Assembly: GCA_945871955.1 (NCBI GenBank) | Contig: CAMBXR010000001.1 | Coordinates: 34,513 to 98,512, forward strand | Reading direction: 5' to 3' | Origin: an uncultured Clostridium sp. | GTDB lineage: Bacteria; Bacillota; Clostridia; Peptostreptococcales; Peptostreptococcaceae | DNA: 64,000 bases | Shown here: piece after piece, positions 1,351 through 8,556 of the stretch | Layout of the letters: each line of letters starts with the position of its first letter | Numbering within the stretch: the first letter of the stretch is position 1 | The notes under the pieces: model-generated | What the model was told of the DNA's origin: nothing | The model's input: only the letters and a program-made list of their open reading frames with translations | Databases searched by the model: none | Position numbers and translations under genes: made by a program

Positions 1351-2796
1351 TTATACTTTTAAATCTACTTCTAAACCAATACAATCTTTAAATTCTGATA
1401 TAGCTGGTTCTAAATATTCGTTAACAAATTCAACAACTTGCTCAGGTGCTCTTCCTACGAAGTTCATAGGGTCTAAAATAGATAATATCTCATCTTTATT
1501 TAACATGCTAAATGCATCATCTTCAATAATTAAATCTATTAAATTATTGTTTAAACCTTCATGTTTCACCCTATAAGCAGCTTTCATAGATAACTCTCTT
1601 ATTACCTCATGTAGTTCTTGTCTATCTCCGCCTCTTTTTACAGCTTCCATAAGTATGTTTTCTGTAGCCATAAATGGTAATTCTTCATCTATATGTTTTC
1701 TTATCATATTTTCATATACAACTAGACCATCTGTTACATTTATACCTATTTCAAGTATAGCATCTGTTGCCATAAACGCTTGTGGTATAGCAAGTCTTTT
1801 ATTAGCAGAATCATCTAAACTTCTTTCTAACCATTGTGTAGCTTCAACTAAAGCTGGTGAAATTGATTCTGATATTATATATTTTGATAAAGAAGCTATT
1901 CTTTCACTTCTCATAGGATTTCTTTTATAAGCCATAGCAGATGACCCTATTTGATTTTTTTCAAATGGCTCTTCTATTTCTTTTAAACTTTGTAATAATC
2001 TTATATCATTTGTCATTTTATGCATACTTTGAGCTATTCCAGCTAGTACATTTAAAACTTGAGAATCTAATTTTCTTGTATAAGTTTGTCCACTTACTTT
2101 ATAAGATTCTTTATATCCCATTTTTTCACATACTATTTTATCTAACTCTTTTATTTTATCTGCATCGTTTTCAAATAAACTCATGAAACTAGCTTGAGTA
2201 CCAGTTGTACCTTTAACTCCTCTAAGTTTCATATTATCAAGTCTATAATTTAAGTCTTCTAAATCTATTATTAAATCTTGTGCCCATAAAGTAGCTCTTT
2301 TACCTACTGTTGTAAGCTGTGCTGCTTGGAAATGAGTAAATCCTAAAGTTGGAACATCTTTGTATTTTAAAGAGAATTCTTTAAGGTTATCTATTAAGTT
2401 AACAAGCTTTACTCTTATTAATTTTAAAGCTTCATTCATTTGTATTACATCTGTGTTGTCTCCAACATATGCTGAAGTAGCACCTAAATGTATTATACCT
2501 TTTGCTTTTGGGCATTGTAATCCATAAGCTTTTACATGACTCATTACATCATGTCTTACTTCTCTTTCTATTTTTCTTGCTTCATCAAAATTTATATCAT
2601 CTACATGAGCTTTTAATTCTTCAATTTGCTCATCTGTTATATTTATTCCTAATTGCTTTTCTCCTTCAGCTAATGCAATCCATAACTTTCTCCAAGTTGA
2701 AAATTTAAATTGTGGAGAAAAAATATAACTCATGTTTTTACTACAATATCTGTCTGTTAAAGGATTTGAATATGTTGTATATTTATTATCTATCAT
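1351..2796 (-). CDS. purB: Adenylosuccinate lyase
   Basis: The enzyme catalyses two fumarate-releasing steps of purine synthesis, SAICAR to AICAR and adenylosuccinate to AMP. The fumarase/aspartase superfamily signature 'GSSAMAYKRNP' (catalytic serine loop) lies at about residue 285. 'HLGATSAYVGDN' and 'THFQAAQ', with the active-site His, are also seen. The ORF track starts 7 codons upstream, but AAGGACGG lies just before the second ATG, so I place the start at 2796 (481 residues, the size of the larger PurB type). It stands alone with its own terminator, apart from other pur genes. Confidence 0.95.
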   Translation of the reverse strand: MIDNKYTTYSNPLTDRYCSKNMSYIFSPQFKFSTWRKLWIALAEGEKQLGINITDEQIEELKAHVDDINFDEARKIEREVRHDVMSHVKAYGLQCPKAKGIIHLGATSAYVGDNTDVIQMNEALKLIRVKLVNLIDNLKEFSLKYKDVPTLGFTHFQAAQLTTVGKRATLWAQDLIIDLEDLNYRLDNMKLRGVKGTTGTQASFMSLFENDADKIKELDKIVCEKMGYKESYKVSGQTYTRKLDSQVLNVLAGIAQSMHKMTNDIRLLQSLKEIEEPFEKNQIGSSAMAYKRNPMRSERIASLSKYIISESISPALVEATQWLERSLDDSANKRLAIPQAFMATDAILEIGINVTDGLVVYENMIRKHIDEELPFMATENILMEAVKRGGDRQELHEVIRELSMKAAYRVKHEGLNNNLIDLIIEDDAFSMLNKDEILSILDPMNFVGRAPEQVVEFVNEYLEPAISEFKDCIGLEVDLKV

Positions 2797-2885
2797 TTTT
2801 ATACCGTCCTTATTCATTTATTCTACAAAGACTATTATACATAATATAACGAACTATAACAATATTTTTTATTTATTTGTTCACA

Positions 2886-3794
2886 TTATTTTTTATTTAA
2901 TTTAAAATTATCTTTTTCTAGCAGATAATCTATACTTTCACTATCCACAAAATTCAGTACATGTTTATATCTAATAGCATAGTATTTATCGCTCCAGCCA
3001 AGCTGTTTTTTTATATCTTCTTTATCTGCACCAAGCATTAAAGAAATGGCTGCATATGAGTGTCTCAAATCCTTTGCAGAATACTGTGGTAAACCAGCCA
3101 TTTCAAAAGCTTTTTTAACTATAAGTCTTACATTTCTATCTGTAATAGACTGACTTTTTTGTGTGGTAAATATGTATTCATCAGTAGGTATTATTATTTC
3201 ACTAAGACCTGAAAAATATCTATAACTTTCTATTAATTTAAAACAATAAGGATGTAGTTTTACTACTCTCTCTTTTTTACCTTGTCCTAATCTTACATAG
3301 AAATTATCTTCTTCATCGACAATTAAATCCTTCCACTTTACTTTTACTAGCTCATTTAATAAACAACCTGTTGTAACAAGAAATACCATTATTAATCTAT
3401 CTCTTGCATTTAATTTATATAATGAGTCTATAAGCTTATTAATTTCTTGTATGCTTAGTACATCTTTTTTACCTTTTTCTCTTGTCACCATAGGTTTTTT
3501 TACAAAGGTAAATGGGTTTATCTCTATATATTTTTCCCTCTTCATAAAAGCATAAAAACTATGCAAATAACTAAAAATTTTCTCACATGTTGAAAGAGCA
3601 TATTCTTCTTCAATGGATGATATGAAATCTCTACATTCATTTTTAGTTACTTCCAATAAATCTTCTACTTTGCTACTCTCTTTAAATAAGATTATTTTAC
3701 TTAAGTAGTCTTTTTTTGTTGCTGGTGTCATTTTTATTGAGAATAATTGAAATATTTCATACTCTTTATTACTTAATATGTAATTTTCCTCCAT
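2886..3794 (-). CDS. Tyrosine recombinase/integrase-like protein with degenerate active site
   Basis: This 302-residue protein has an N-terminal SAM-like core-binding region (about 20-90) and a C-terminal phage-integrase fold (about 110-285). C-terminal landmarks are readable: a Lys hairpin 'GKKERVVKLH', 'DLRHSYA' with the second Arg (R244), 'LGWSDKYY', and a Tyr in 'RYKHV' (Y276). The first catalytic Arg, expected in a 'TGxR' motif, is Leu in 'TTGCLLNEL', and the first His of HxxR is Lys ('KDLR'). This suggests lost or altered strand-exchange activity. It follows the helicase gene by 14 bases and is almost surely co-transcribed. AGAAGGAG precedes the ATG. The recombinase fold is secure; the role is unknown. 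Confidence 0.8.
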   Translation of the reverse strand: MEENYILSNKEYEIFQLFSIKMTPATKKDYLSKIILFKESSKVEDLLEVTKNECRDFISSIEEEYALSTCEKIFSYLHSFYAFMKREKYIEINPFTFVKKPMVTREKGKKDVLSIQEINKLIDSLYKLNARDRLIMVFLVTTGCLLNELVKVKWKDLIVDEEDNFYVRLGQGKKERVVKLHPYCFKLIESYRYFSGLSEIIIPTDEYIFTTQKSQSITDRNVRLIVKKAFEMAGLPQYSAKDLRHSYAAISLMLGADKEDIKKQLGWSDKYYAIRYKHVLNFVDSESIDYLLEKDNFKLNKK

Positions 3795-3808
3795 AATATC
3801 TCCTTCTA

Positions 3809-5596
3809 TTATTCTTTATTTATAGAATCTACTATTATTTTTATCAATTCACTAGAATTCTCATTAAAAGTAGTAGTAATCGTTAAATACTCACTAGCTC
3901 TATTCATTACCATATATATTTTATTTAAATCTCCTACAAAATCATTAACTTGATAGTCTTGATCATTTTCACTTATTGTTTGATTATATAACATCTCTAA
4001 TTCGCAGAATACCACAGCTTTAAACTCTAAATTTTTAATAAAATATAAATTAGATATAGTTATTCCACTTCTTTTAGCATGTTTAGTTAAATTTTCATCC
4101 CCCATAATATATGGTATACTTACATCATCCAATGCTTTTCTTAATAAATATTGGAAATATATTGTCTTACCATTTTTTAATCTTTTCTTGTTATAAGGAA
4201 ATACTATGGCTATATCGCTATAGTTTAATCCTTTATTATTTAGCAAATATTTAATTTCCCATAATATAGAGCTAATCTGGTCTTCTAAATCCTCAGCTTT
4301 TACTATTTGTGCCATAATTCCATCTTTCATAATAGATTTACTTGGCTTGTATATTTCTCTTTTTATATTATTTCTTAAAGATTTTATATATTTATTGGCA
4401 TTTTTACAGAATTCATTAGAAAAATCAACAATTGCTTTTTTCTGTCTATAGTTTTCATCAAGTAAAACTTCTTCATCAAACTCTATATAATCTAATGTTT
4501 TTTTGAATATATTTACATTATTATAAATATTTAAATATTCACAATAATACATATTAAAGATATATTTTTTTTCATATAAAAACTCTTGAATAAACTCCAC
4601 ATATTTTTGCTCAAAACATTCGCTCTCATCTATAAATATACCTTTGTACATTCTTTTATTTTTTATAACATTTTTAGCTTGTTTTATTAAATTATTAAAA
4701 GTTTTTTCATAATCCTTTTTTAGCATATTATGGTCTAATACTAAATTATATCTTTTAGATAATTTAAATACAAAAGAAGAAATCGTATGTACTTCTAAAT
4801 TATTATTTTCTTTATATAATAATTTGATGCTTTCTTTCAGTTGATTACAAAGTTGTTTTGTGTGAGTAAAAATTACAAAGTTATGATGTGGATAAATACG
4901 AGCTAATTTTATTGCTCTACTAAGCATAATAGTAGTCTTTCCACTTGCCGTTGGACCTTGAATCAATGATTTACCATAATTTATACTTAAGGCCTTCTCT
5001 AATTGATTATTAGTAAGCATATTAGCCGTATAAGTGTAATCATCTTGAGAAAAAGTAATTTTCTTAAACTCTTTATTAAGATGATAAGCACCATTTAGTT
5101 CATAATACTCAGGACATATATCCAATAAATATAGGTTTAATTCTATTTCATTATTTTCTTCACTTAAATATTTTTCTAATTCTTTAGGTTTATTTATTAT
5201 ATTCTTTAATTTATTTTTATCTATTATATTATTATTTACAAACTCCTCAAAACCATAGTCATCTTCTATAGTTACATATGGCATAATAAATACATAATTA
5301 AAACTAATATTGCTATGTAATTGAGCCATCTTCAACTTTAATAGTTCATTTTCTTCATTCATTACTTCTATTAGTTCTTCATCTAATATGGAAAACAAAT
5401 CTTCACTAGTATCCATGAACTTAACAAAAAGTATTTTATTATCCTTAATATATAATAAATCTGTATTAATTCCTCTAAAAGGAGTAACTTTTGGCACTAC
5501 ATTTGTATTGTCATTAATTTTTTCGTAAAAAATTTTTTCTACTTCTTTTACTCTCAATGCATCTAATTGTGAATCTATTTTTATATTTTGTCTCAA
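3809..5596 (-). CDS. UvrD/Rep-like SF1 helicase with nuclease-like (NERD-like) N-terminus
   Basis: The C-terminal two thirds is a superfamily 1 ATPase. A Q-motif glutamine is seen at about 198, Walker A 'GPTASGKTT' at about 214, and motif Ia 'FTHTKQL'. Walker B is 'FIDESE' (about 321), motif IV-like 'LDENYRQ' (about 379), motif V-like 'KNLEFKAVVF', and arginine-finger motif VI 'YMVMNRASEYLTI' (about 561). The first ~185 residues lack helicase motifs. They contain 'GINTDLLYI' and 'ILFVKF', reminiscent of the D...(E/V)xK core of NERD/restriction-like folds; that part is inference. The start codon is TTG with GGGGGA upstream. At 595 residues it is shorter than UvrD/PcrA. It forms a two-gene unit with the recombinase-like gene. 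Confidence 0.8.
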   Translation of the reverse strand: MRQNIKIDSQLDALRVKEVEKIFYEKINDNTNVVPKVTPFRGINTDLLYIKDNKILFVKFMDTSEDLFSILDEELIEVMNEENELLKLKMAQLHSNISFNYVFIMPYVTIEDDYGFEEFVNNNIIDKNKLKNIINKPKELEKYLSEENNEIELNLYLLDICPEYYELNGAYHLNKEFKKITFSQDDYTYTANMLTNNQLEKALSINYGKSLIQGPTASGKTTIMLSRAIKLARIYPHHNFVIFTHTKQLCNQLKESIKLLYKENNNLEVHTISSFVFKLSKRYNLVLDHNMLKKDYEKTFNNLIKQAKNVIKNKRMYKGIFIDESECFEQKYVEFIQEFLYEKKYIFNMYYCEYLNIYNNVNIFKKTLDYIEFDEEVLLDENYRQKKAIVDFSNEFCKNANKYIKSLRNNIKREIYKPSKSIMKDGIMAQIVKAEDLEDQISSILWEIKYLLNNKGLNYSDIAIVFPYNKKRLKNGKTIYFQYLLRKALDDVSIPYIMGDENLTKHAKRSGITISNLYFIKNLEFKAVVFCELEMLYNQTISENDQDYQVNDFVGDLNKIYMVMNRASEYLTITTTFNENSSELIKIIVDSINKE

Positions 5597-5695: not shown

Positions 5696-5724
5696 AAAAA
5701 AGGAGAGTGAAAACTCTCCTTTTA
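5696..5724 (-). terminator. Terminator after rny
   Basis: AAAAGGAGAGT-GAAA-ACTCTCCTTTT forms a stem with a GNRA-like loop and a U-run on the minus strand. It lies directly after the rny stop codon. Confidence 0.9.
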
Positions 5725-5725
5725 A

Positions 5726-7264
5726 TTATTTAGCATATTCTATAGCTCTTGTTTCTCTGATTATACTTACTTTTATTTGACCTGGATATTCAAGCTCATC
5801 TTCAATTTGTTTAGTCATCTTTCTAGCTAATAAATGAAGTTCTTCATCATTAATAGCTTCAGGTTTAACCATTATTCTTATTTCTCTACCAGCTTGAATT
5901 GCATAAGATTTTTCTACACCTTCATAAGAGCTAGCTATTTCTTCAAGTTTTTCTAATCTCTTAATATAAGCTTCTAAAGTTTCTCTTCTTGCTCCTGGTC
6001 TTGCTGCAGATATAGCATCTGCTGCTGTAACTAGTACTGCTTCAACACTTTGTGGCTCATAATCTCCATGGTGAGTACTCATAGCATGTATAACTTCCTT
6101 AGATTCTTTATATCTTCTAAGTAAATCCATACCTATTTCAACATGTGTACCTTCCATTTCATGATCCACAGCTTTACCTATATCATGAAGTAATCCAGCT
6201 CTTTTAGCTAATTTTATGTCTGCACCTATTTCCGCAGCCATAATTCCAGCTATATGAGCAACTTCTATTGAATGCTTTAATACATTTTGACCATAACTAG
6301 TTCTATAGTTTAGTCTACCTAGTAATTTAACTAATTCAGGATGTAGAGAATGTACACCAGTTTCAAATATAGCTTGTTCACCATATTCTTTTATGATGTT
6401 TTCCACTTCTTTTCTTGATTTTTCAACCATTTCTTCTATTCTTGCTGGATGTATTCTTCCATCTGATATTAGTTTTTCTAATGCAATTCTTGCAACTTCT
6501 CTTCTAATAGGATCGAACCCTGATAAAATCACAGCTTCTGGAGTGTCATCAATTATAAGATCTATACCTGTTAAAGTTTCTAATGTTCTTATATTTCTTC
6601 CCTCTCTACCTATTATTCTCCCCTTCATTTCATCGTTAGGTAAATTAACTACTGTAACAGTAGTTTCTGCAACATGATCTGCTGCACATTTTTGAATAGC
6701 ATAGCCTATTATTTCTCTAGATTTCTTTTCAGCTTCTTCTTTAGCTTGAGTTTCTATATCCTTTATCATTATAGACATTTCATGTCTTACTTCTCTTTCA
6801 GCATTTGCAAGAATTATTTCTTTAGCTTTTTCAGATGTAACTCCAGATATATCTTCAAGTTTTTCAAGCTGTTTAACTTTTATTTCTTCTACTTCTTCTT
6901 CTTTCTTTTGTACTGATTTTAGTTTTTCATTTAAACTAAATTCTTTACTTTCTAGGTTTTGTTGCTTTCTTTCGATAGCTTCTTCCTTTTGAAGAACTCT
7001 TCTTTCATATTTTTGAACTTCATTACGTCTTTCTCTTTGCTCTTTTTCAGCGTCAGTTCTCCATTTATGAATTTCTTCTTTTGCTTCTAATAATTTTTCT
7101 TTTTTTATTGTTTCTGAGTCTTTATTTGCTTTATCTATTATATCATTGGCTAGAGCTTTAGCTTCACCAATTTTAGTTTCAGATATGTTTTTTCTAACAA
7201 AATATCCAACTATAATACCAATAGCTAAACCAAGTATGCTGGCTATTATTTCTATGACATCCAC
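5726..7264 (-). CDS. rny: Ribonuclease Y
   Basis: This is the membrane-anchored endoribonuclease that starts mRNA decay in Firmicutes. The domain order is textbook: one N-terminal membrane helix (about 4-24), a long charged coiled coil (about 30-200), a KH domain with '[15 protein letters not shown]' (about 215), and an HD domain '[12 protein letters not shown]' (about 358). Length is 512, close to the family norm. The start is odd. The only in-frame GTG directly abuts the AAAGGAGG ribosome site, leaving no spacer, and no other standard start fits; an ATA three codons later has ideal spacing. A good promoter lies ~170 bases upstream. Confidence 0.95.
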
Positions 7265-7490: not shown

Positions 7491-8519
7491 TTATTCAATT
7501 TCTTGATTTTCTTCAACTATTGTTTTATCAAGGTTATAATGTTCTCTAACTTTAGCATTAATTTCATCTGTTAAATCCATATTATCTGCTAAGAACTTCT
7601 TAACATTTTCTCTACCTTGTCCAAGTTTTATATCATTATATGCGTACCAAGATCCTGATTTTTTAACTATATCTATATCAGCAGCAATATCTAATAAATC
7701 ACCTATTTTAGATATACCTTCCCCGTACATTATATCAAATTCAGCTTGTTTAAATGGTGGAGCAACTTTGTTTTTAACAACTTTTACTCTAGTTCTATTT
7801 CCTAAAACTTTATCACCTTGTTTTATACTATCTATTCTTCTTACATCAAGTCTTACTGATGAATAGAATTTAAGAGCACGTCCACCTGTAGTAGTTTCAG
7901 GATTACCAAACATTATACCAACTTTTTCTCTTAACTGGTTAATAAATATAGCAACACAATTAGATTTTTTAATTGATCCTGTTAATTTTCTTAATGCTTG
8001 AGACATAAGTCTTGCTTGTAAACCTACGTGAGAATCTCCCATTTCTCCTTCAATCTCAGCTTTTGGAACTAATGCTGCAACTGAGTCAACTACTATTATA
8101 TCTATAGCACCAGATCTTATTAATGCCTCTGTTATTTCTAGAGCTTGTTCCCCTGTATCTGGTTGAGATATTATTAAGTTATCTATATCTACACCTAAAG
8201 CTTTAGCATAAACTGGATCTAGAGCATGTTCTGCATCTATGAATGCTGCTATACCACCATTTTTTTGCGCTTCAGCTACTGTATGTAGAGCAACTGTTGT
8301 TTTACCTGAAGATTCTGGTCCATATATTTCAACTATTCTTCCCTTTGGAAGTCCACCTATACCAACTGCTATGTCAAGTCCTATTGAACCTGTTGATATA
8401 GCTTCAACACCCATTGATGATGCTTCCCCAAGTCTCATAACTGACCCTTTTCCAAAATCTTTTTCTATTTTTCCTAAAGCCTGATTAAGGGCTTGTAACT
8501 TTTCTTGTTCTATACTCAT
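7491..8519 (-). CDS. recA: Recombinase A
   Basis: RecA is the strand-exchange ATPase of homologous recombination and the co-protease for LexA. Walker A 'GPESSGKTT' lies at residues 67-75 and the L2 segment '[13 protein letters not shown]' is intact. The ORF track opens at 8546, but AAAGG lies 9 nt before the ATG at 8519 (protein MSIEQEK...). The in-frame ATG before that overlaps the ribosome site. The resulting length of 342 is normal. It has its own promoter and a LexA-like site. No cinA lies between it and pgsA, unlike Bacillus subtilis. Confidence 0.97.
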
Positions 8520-8544
8520 ATTATTCATCCTTTCTTTTTCTAAC

Positions 8545-8556
8545 AAACATTTGTTC
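8545..8556 (-). promoter_or_regulatory. LexA (SOS) operator-like box of recA
   Basis: GAACAAATGTTT on the minus strand matches the Gram-positive LexA consensus GAAC-N4-GTTC except for the last base. It lies about 15-25 bases downstream of the recA -10 box, where bound LexA would block elongation or initiation. The next T's make the dyad weaker on that side. Confidence 0.65.

Follow-up and report, generated by a model that had tools for sequence, protein, structure and literature searches.

The window, by which we mean the whole 64,000-nucleotide stretch of DNA analysed here, contains two neighbouring genes coding for a helicase-like protein (Hel) and a tyrosine recombinase homologue (TyrRec), and the locus raises the question of what task such proteins serve in a chromosome and whether they serve it together. 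An initial annotation had read them as a two-gene unit that might process DNA ends or branched DNA, represent a domesticated mobile module, or act as a defence pair. The basic layout that it gave is exact (Table 1): the two minus-strand reading frames have the coordinates and spacing described, and each has a ribosome site of its own, with a Shine-Dalgarno-like AGGAG 5 nt 5′ of the TyrRec ATG and a GGGGG about 9 nt 5′ of the Hel TTG. The flanking purB and rny genes were also correctly named, to which recA can be added next to rny, and a MarR-type gene is also found downstream of TyrRec with purB. With a terminator-like hairpin lying between rny and Hel, Hel and TyrRec may be transcribed separately from rny. 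Both reading frames are genuine genes, since full-length orthologues are present in dozens of genomes and dN/dS values are 0.02–0.14 for both in most close pairs. The closest named records to the window's Hel are from Terrisporobacter and one Clostridium sp. MAG (79–82% Hel identity), which places the window in Terrisporobacter (Peptostreptococcaceae); public records annotate the proteins as 'DNA helicase' and 'tyrosine-type recombinase/integrase', and no described family or function for either was found in the libraries and literature searched, beyond the Tn-seq entry discussed below.

Table 1. Features of the Hel-TyrRec locus (positions in the window; residues are those of the encoded protein).
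Feature	Position	Strand	Description	Basis
purB	1351..2817	-	kept downstream neighbour	ORFs and neighbourhood comparison
TyrRec gene	2886..3794	-	302 aa, ATG start; Xer-fold tyrosine recombinase homologue without Arg-I	
TyrRec stretch with Arg-II (R244), Trp267 and Tyr276	2967..3065	-		alignment
TyrRec Arg-I region	3345..3374	-	residues 141-150, TTGCLLNELV; Arg replaced by Leu145	alignment
Hel-TyrRec gap	3795..3808	-	14 bases; holds TyrRec ribosome-binding site	ORF list and sequence
Hel gene	3809..5596	-	595 aa, TTG start	ORF list, family, fold, distribution
Hel motif II	4619..4636	-	FIDESE, residues 321-326; catalytic Glu kept in the window	alignment
Hel motif I (Walker A)	4931..4957	-	GPTASGKTT, residues 214-222	alignment
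Hel N-terminal domain	5042..5596	-	about residues 1-185	secondary-structure order and residues in model, alignment
Terminator-like hairpin	5698..5723	.	T-rich flanks; between rny and Hel	sequence
rny (RNase Y)	5726..7264	-	kept upstream neighbour	ORFs and neighbourhood comparison
recA	7491..8546	-	kept neighbour, adjoins rny	ORFs and neighbourhood comparison

It is close to certain that Hel and TyrRec are conserved, vertically inherited core genes of the Peptostreptococcaceae. Of the family's 71 genomes, 66 carry Hel (E < 1e-230) and 52 carry TyrRec, always alongside Hel; the 14 genomes with Hel and no TyrRec comprise nine Peptostreptococcus, three Peptacetobacter, and two others (G056 and G057). 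Among 297 genomes of the order, and weak matches aside, Hel occurs outside the family only in family f9 (Acetoanaerobium and its relatives), and a search of 391 genomes of the class yielded nothing beyond weak motor matches. Relatives of TyrRec with about 28–36% identity are found in three further families, f11, f5 and f6. The dN/dS values of both genes are somewhat higher than those of recA, rny and purB and far below neutrality, the highest (0.26 and 0.31) coming from a single divergent pair (L163 and L172).

In most genera recA and rny are followed by Hel (with a 93-aa gene before it in some), then by an opposite-strand uppP, TyrRec and purB. No uppP separates Hel from TyrRec in Terrisporobacter, Intestinibacter, Asaccharospora and two Romboutsia-like genomes, and the 14-base gap is peculiar to the window's genome, with 69–95 bases separating the genes in other Terrisporobacter. 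Because an opposite-strand uppP intervenes in most genera, the tight adjacency seen in the window is, judging from these gene orders, derived, and a conserved or ancestral Hel-TyrRec operon is refuted. The proposal of a fixed two-gene unit is thus not supported: the genes co-occur and share a neighbourhood, TyrRec never being found without Hel, but strict adjacency does not hold, as they are usually apart and Hel stands alone in 14 of its 66 genomes. The neighbours are core rather than variable, with synteny of recA, rny, uppP and purB across most genera, and the suggestion of a core, non-mobile ('domesticated') setting is borne out by these invariant neighbours and by vertical inheritance. 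Many genera also have a conserved protein of 93–99 aa between rny and Hel (e.g. L064:8839-9117); it is absent from this position in Terrisporobacter, and has no Pfam or NCBIfam match.

A mobile-element module was considered and rejected. The phage search gave no match to Hel, and the phage matches to TyrRec are integrases with 23–31% identity; the plasmid matches are to a Tepidibacter record that includes a run of core genes and to a chromosome-sized Acetoanaerobium record of 2.6 Mb. The former (NZ_OW235316.1, Tepidibacter aestuarii pT8CH; our locus L231) is a 38-kb 'plasmid' record containing Hel, uppP, TyrRec, purB and other core genes, and in G084, apparently from this organism too, contigs C1 and C2 give identical scores for Hel and TyrRec; the record may reflect an error of assembly or the duplication of a piece of chromosome.

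What kind of protein is Hel? Pfam matches are only of the DEAD/ResIII type and begin at residue 200, and the N-terminal domain had no profile match in a Pfam search of the whole protein. An AlphaFold model built from 21 orthologues (pLDDT 86, pTM 0.89) has UvrD (E 5e-15), PcrA and Rep as its top solved structures by Foldseek, with HelD ranking far beneath, and with TM-scores of just 0.45–0.5 across the whole chain. By its predicted model Hel is a UvrD-like SF1 protein with the two-domain SF1 fold, in line with the SF1 helicase originally proposed; it was not found to belong to a named repair family in the libraries and papers searched. The window's Hel keeps motifs I, II (DE), IV and VI, and the Walker A lysine is invariant in all 64 distinct sequences; motif III (GDxxQ) is not recognisable in the alignment, and its glutamine is missing. 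The motor motifs are eroded in some lineages: the motif II glutamate is lost in six distinct sequences (from Tepidibacter, a two-genome MAG genus, and G018), the motif II aspartate is lost in Peptostreptococcus anaerobius, and the motif VI arginine is lost in ten distinct sequences. Given these losses, and because the Tepidibacter Hel without the glutamate still has a dN/dS of about 0.1, with selection not relaxed, ATP hydrolysis may be dispensable in some lineages.

The N-terminal domain had been called nuclease-like, and this description fits the order of its secondary-structure elements but not its catalytic residues. In the predicted model, residues 1–185 have the order helix-strand-strand-strand-helix-strand, which is that of the restriction endonuclease core, and D46 and K59 are invariant in the alignment and placed as in a PD-(D/E)xK site; secondary-structure order and residues together point to a PD-(D/E)xK/NERD-like domain. 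The canonical D...(D/E)xK set is not present in the alignment, the acid position before x-K being occupied by F57, a phenylalanine in 58 of 58 family sequences and leucine, isoleucine or phenylalanine in f9. Since this acid is replaced, nuclease activity of the domain is not established. Two glutamates, E77 and E82, are invariant on the helix following K59, and one of them could be a migrated acid of the nuclease site.

TyrRec matches the Pfam Phage_integrase domain (9e-21) together with a SAM-like core-binding domain, and its model has the Xer fold, with XerA and XerH (5hxy and 5jk0) as best matches in the fold search. Scores against the XerC and XerD NCBIfam models are 107–109 bits, far below the equivalog cut-offs of 329.6–335. 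Loss of the first catalytic arginine (Arg-I) is close to certain: among 45 distinct family sequences this position is leucine in 41 and methionine in 4; it is threonine in ten sequences of the f11 and f5 relatives, with arginine found only in two f6 sequences. None of R244, W267 and Y276 varies across the 57 sequences of the family and the f11, f5 and f6 relatives. The catalytic lysine of the beta hairpin is a glutamine in the window, is kept in 33 of 45 family sequences, and is lost in f11 and f5. Judged as a catalytic tyrosine recombinase, TyrRec thus lacks the Arg-I (T/S)GLR motif and the lysine, and retains Arg-II, Trp/His-III and the tyrosine. A recombinase-fold partner with a crippled active site had been anticipated, and we can add that the fold is that of Xer, that Arg-I is lost family-wide, and that the gene is under purifying selection; TyrRec is probably a selected, non-cleaving Xer-like DNA binder. 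The literature on inactive tyrosine recombinases yielded nothing on this family. Three more distant relatives from the class-wide search (L228-L230) have lost further catalytic residues, including the tyrosine nucleophile in L228 and L229.

TyrRec-type proteins form one group in the tree, apart from XerD (support 100/99), and a separate XerD-type gene (C1:148739, 292 bits) was identified, XerD being present in the same genomes as TyrRec. We therefore reject TyrRec both as a missing XerC and as the sole chromosomal Xer protein: in neighbouring families the best XerC-model matches mostly coincide with the XerD matches, Peptacetobacter has XerD without TyrRec, and Peptostreptococcus lacks both. 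All nine Peptostreptococcus genomes (G010 and G067-G074) have no XerD match at 1e-45 and no TyrRec, which raises the question of how they resolve chromosome dimers. In all eight f11 loci examined (L210-L217) a tyrosine recombinase homologue of 181–192 aa that has the TGLR motif sits beside the TyrRec relative (e.g. L213, 6837-7382), and on the other side some of these loci have recN-like, spoIVB-like and spo0A-like genes, named here from sequence rather than by profile.

A different association of Hel is seen in the sister family f9, where in six loci (L193, L194, L195, L196, L197 and L075) it immediately precedes a type IV pilus/ComG-like operon and is collinear with it. The pilus genes (GspE/PilB, GspF and pilins) were identified by profile in L193, L195 and L196, and for the first pilin only in L075; those of L194 and L197 were named by size and order. 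The Hel and PilB genes overlap by 4 bases in L196 and are separated by 13 in L195, and the upstream context varies, being rny-Hel-pilus in two loci and ftsZ-nrdR-Hel-pilus in others. If Hel was ancestrally associated with DNA uptake, this arrangement is the strongest hint of it. A strict tie between Hel and the presence of a pilus is unsupported, as PilB-type genes are found in nearly every genome, with or without Hel.

Some information on function comes from C. difficile. CDR20291_1171, a 593-aa UvrD/REP-type helicase, is essential by Tn-seq in a 2025 CRISPRi and Tn-seq study, which also reports it as essential or ambiguous in a 2015 screen, and finds no viability defect on CRISPRi (PMC12548448); it belongs to a set of 15 functionally uncharacterised genes that two C. 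difficile Tn-seq studies agree in scoring as essential, or as at least ambiguous in the case of the older one. Because CDR20291_1169 is recA (PMC4234289), the order is recA-rny-Hel, and the C. difficile Hel (locus L148) is 593 aa long, Hel is the orthologue of CDR20291_1171, an assignment made by gene order and size and not by the sequence of that strain. The same recA, rny, Hel order, without an inserted gene, is seen in L198, from the same genus as the C. difficile-like loci. By this order TyrRec would be expected near CDR20291_1174. The next gene in C. difficile (L148) is transcribed towards Hel, which makes a polar effect on a gene downstream an unlikely cause of the essentiality.

The reading that we favour, with a probability of about 0.45 for the statement as a whole, is that Hel serves in chromosome maintenance and that TyrRec is an accessory, probably non-cleaving DNA binder. 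Hel, with its atypical N-terminal domain resembling a restriction fold, would be a DNA motor or clamp of the SF1 (UvrD) type that binds ATP, serving a vegetative chromosome-maintenance task beside recA, and most likely handling DNA ends, gaps or branched intermediates whose removal is needed for viability. TyrRec would be a former Xer-type recombinase whose Arg-I has changed to leucine or methionine and whose capacity for strand exchange has probably gone; it would now bind DNA at particular sequences or junctions, as an accessory within the neighbourhood or pathway of Hel, and be dispensable in some lineages. The data show the folds, the distribution, the synteny, the selection and the loss of Arg-I, and the essentiality is carried over from the literature; the handling of branched DNA, a TyrRec that acts without catalysis, and a functional link between the proteins are inferences. 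Several observations run against this reading: CRISPRi of CDR20291_1171 gave no viability defect, the losses of the motif II glutamate and motif VI arginine are odd for an obligate motor, the coupling of Hel to the f9 pilus operon points to another function, and a pure binder has no obvious need for an invariant tyrosine nucleophile and Arg-II. A more ambitious form we consider improbable: that a UvrD-type protein whose nuclease domain has been remodelled and a non-cleaving recombinase that reads sites or junctions make up an essential clostridial machine for chromosome processing, derived from or shared with a DNA-uptake (ComG-like pilus) operon of the sister family.

Other explanations account for parts of these data. 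Hel could handle DNA brought in by a type IV pilus/ComG-type machine, having been split from that operon and yet kept in the Peptostreptococcaceae; in the six f9 loci the linkage of Hel to the pilus genes persists although the gene on its other side differs, but in the Peptostreptococcaceae the PilB genes sit elsewhere in the genome than Hel, genomes without Hel still carry PilB, and G068 has Hel and no GspE match. The essentiality in C. difficile is also a misfit for a purely uptake-linked role, and we regard it as rather unlikely. It is unlikely, too, that Hel is a non-helicase accessory or regulatory protein, either HelD-like or tied to RNase Y and RNA, acting through ATP binding and protein contacts with hydrolysis dispensable. 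Such a role would suit the combination of an invariant Walker A lysine with losses at motifs II and VI, the sustained selection on the Tepidibacter protein, the unrecognisable motif III, and the frequent proximity of rny; most sequences, that of the window among them, nevertheless keep motifs I, II, IV and VI, and the fold search places UvrD, PcrA and Rep first with HelD far below.

TyrRec might still be an active recombinase, the missing Arg-I being compensated by another residue or by a catalytic partner such as the mini-recombinases of 181–190 aa. The invariance of Arg-II, Trp and Tyr in 57 sequences, the small TGLR-keeping homologue beside the TyrRec relative in all eight f11 loci, and the retention of Arg-I in the distant lineage f6 would all fit; however, Arg-I is leucine, methionine or threonine in 55 of the 57 sequences, the catalytic lysine is lost in several, and no invertible or dif-like site has been linked to TyrRec. 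Among eight conserved C. difficile recombinases tried on the flagellar switch, a set that may or may not include TyrRec, RecV alone was active (PMC5386303). We think activity of TyrRec distinctly unlikely. Least likely of the readings, and very improbable, is a defence pair akin to NERD-UvrD or Gabija-like systems. The PADLOC NERD+UvrD model C3a187 matches Hel residues 194–576 (7.5e-19) and GajB also matches (3.7e-8), both over the helicase part only, against which stand the near-universal carriage (66 of 71), neighbours that are fixed core genes, vertical inheritance, low dN/dS, the lack of any phage match to Hel, and the lack of an island-like setting in the neighbourhoods compared; with a distribution that is neither patchy nor island-borne we reject defence, which the initial annotation had entertained.

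Through these comparisons CDR20291_1171 gains a family, kept neighbours, residues that are candidates for catalysis, a possible partner, and a natural series of variants that lack one motif or another. The TyrRec clade illustrates that a Xer-fold protein can lose Arg-I and stay a strongly selected core gene across many genera, and it offers a direct way to test whether recombinase folds can serve without catalysis.

Among known systems, Hel resembles the UvrD/PcrA/Rep SF1A helicases in its two RecA-like domains, Walker A, DE-box, NYR, and motif V/VI positions, but with only about 12% identity, a motif II of DExE rather than DExQ, an unrecognisable motif III, catalytic motifs that are eroded in some lineages, and an additional restriction-fold-like N-terminal domain. 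It shares with NERD+UvrD (C3a187) the arrangement of an N-terminal nuclease-like part followed by a UvrD-type motor, but differs in having no match to that model over the N-terminal domain, in its core chromosomal setting, and in replacement of the E-x-K acid. TyrRec shares the fold, Arg-II, Trp/His-III and Tyr with XerC, XerD, XerA and XerH, from which it is set apart by loss of Arg-I, a variable lysine, scores below the equivalog cut-offs, and a clade separate from the XerD of the same genomes. The streptococcal XerD-like protein (XerDL) is a chromosomal Xer-like protein reported to take no part in dif recombination, and is encoded near scpAB, a setting unlike that of TyrRec; we treat it as a lead only. 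CDR20291_1171, an uncharacterised C. difficile helicase, corresponds to Hel in its position relative to recA and in length (593 aa, compared with 595 aa in the window); in C. difficile uppP and a 182-aa gene precede TyrRec.
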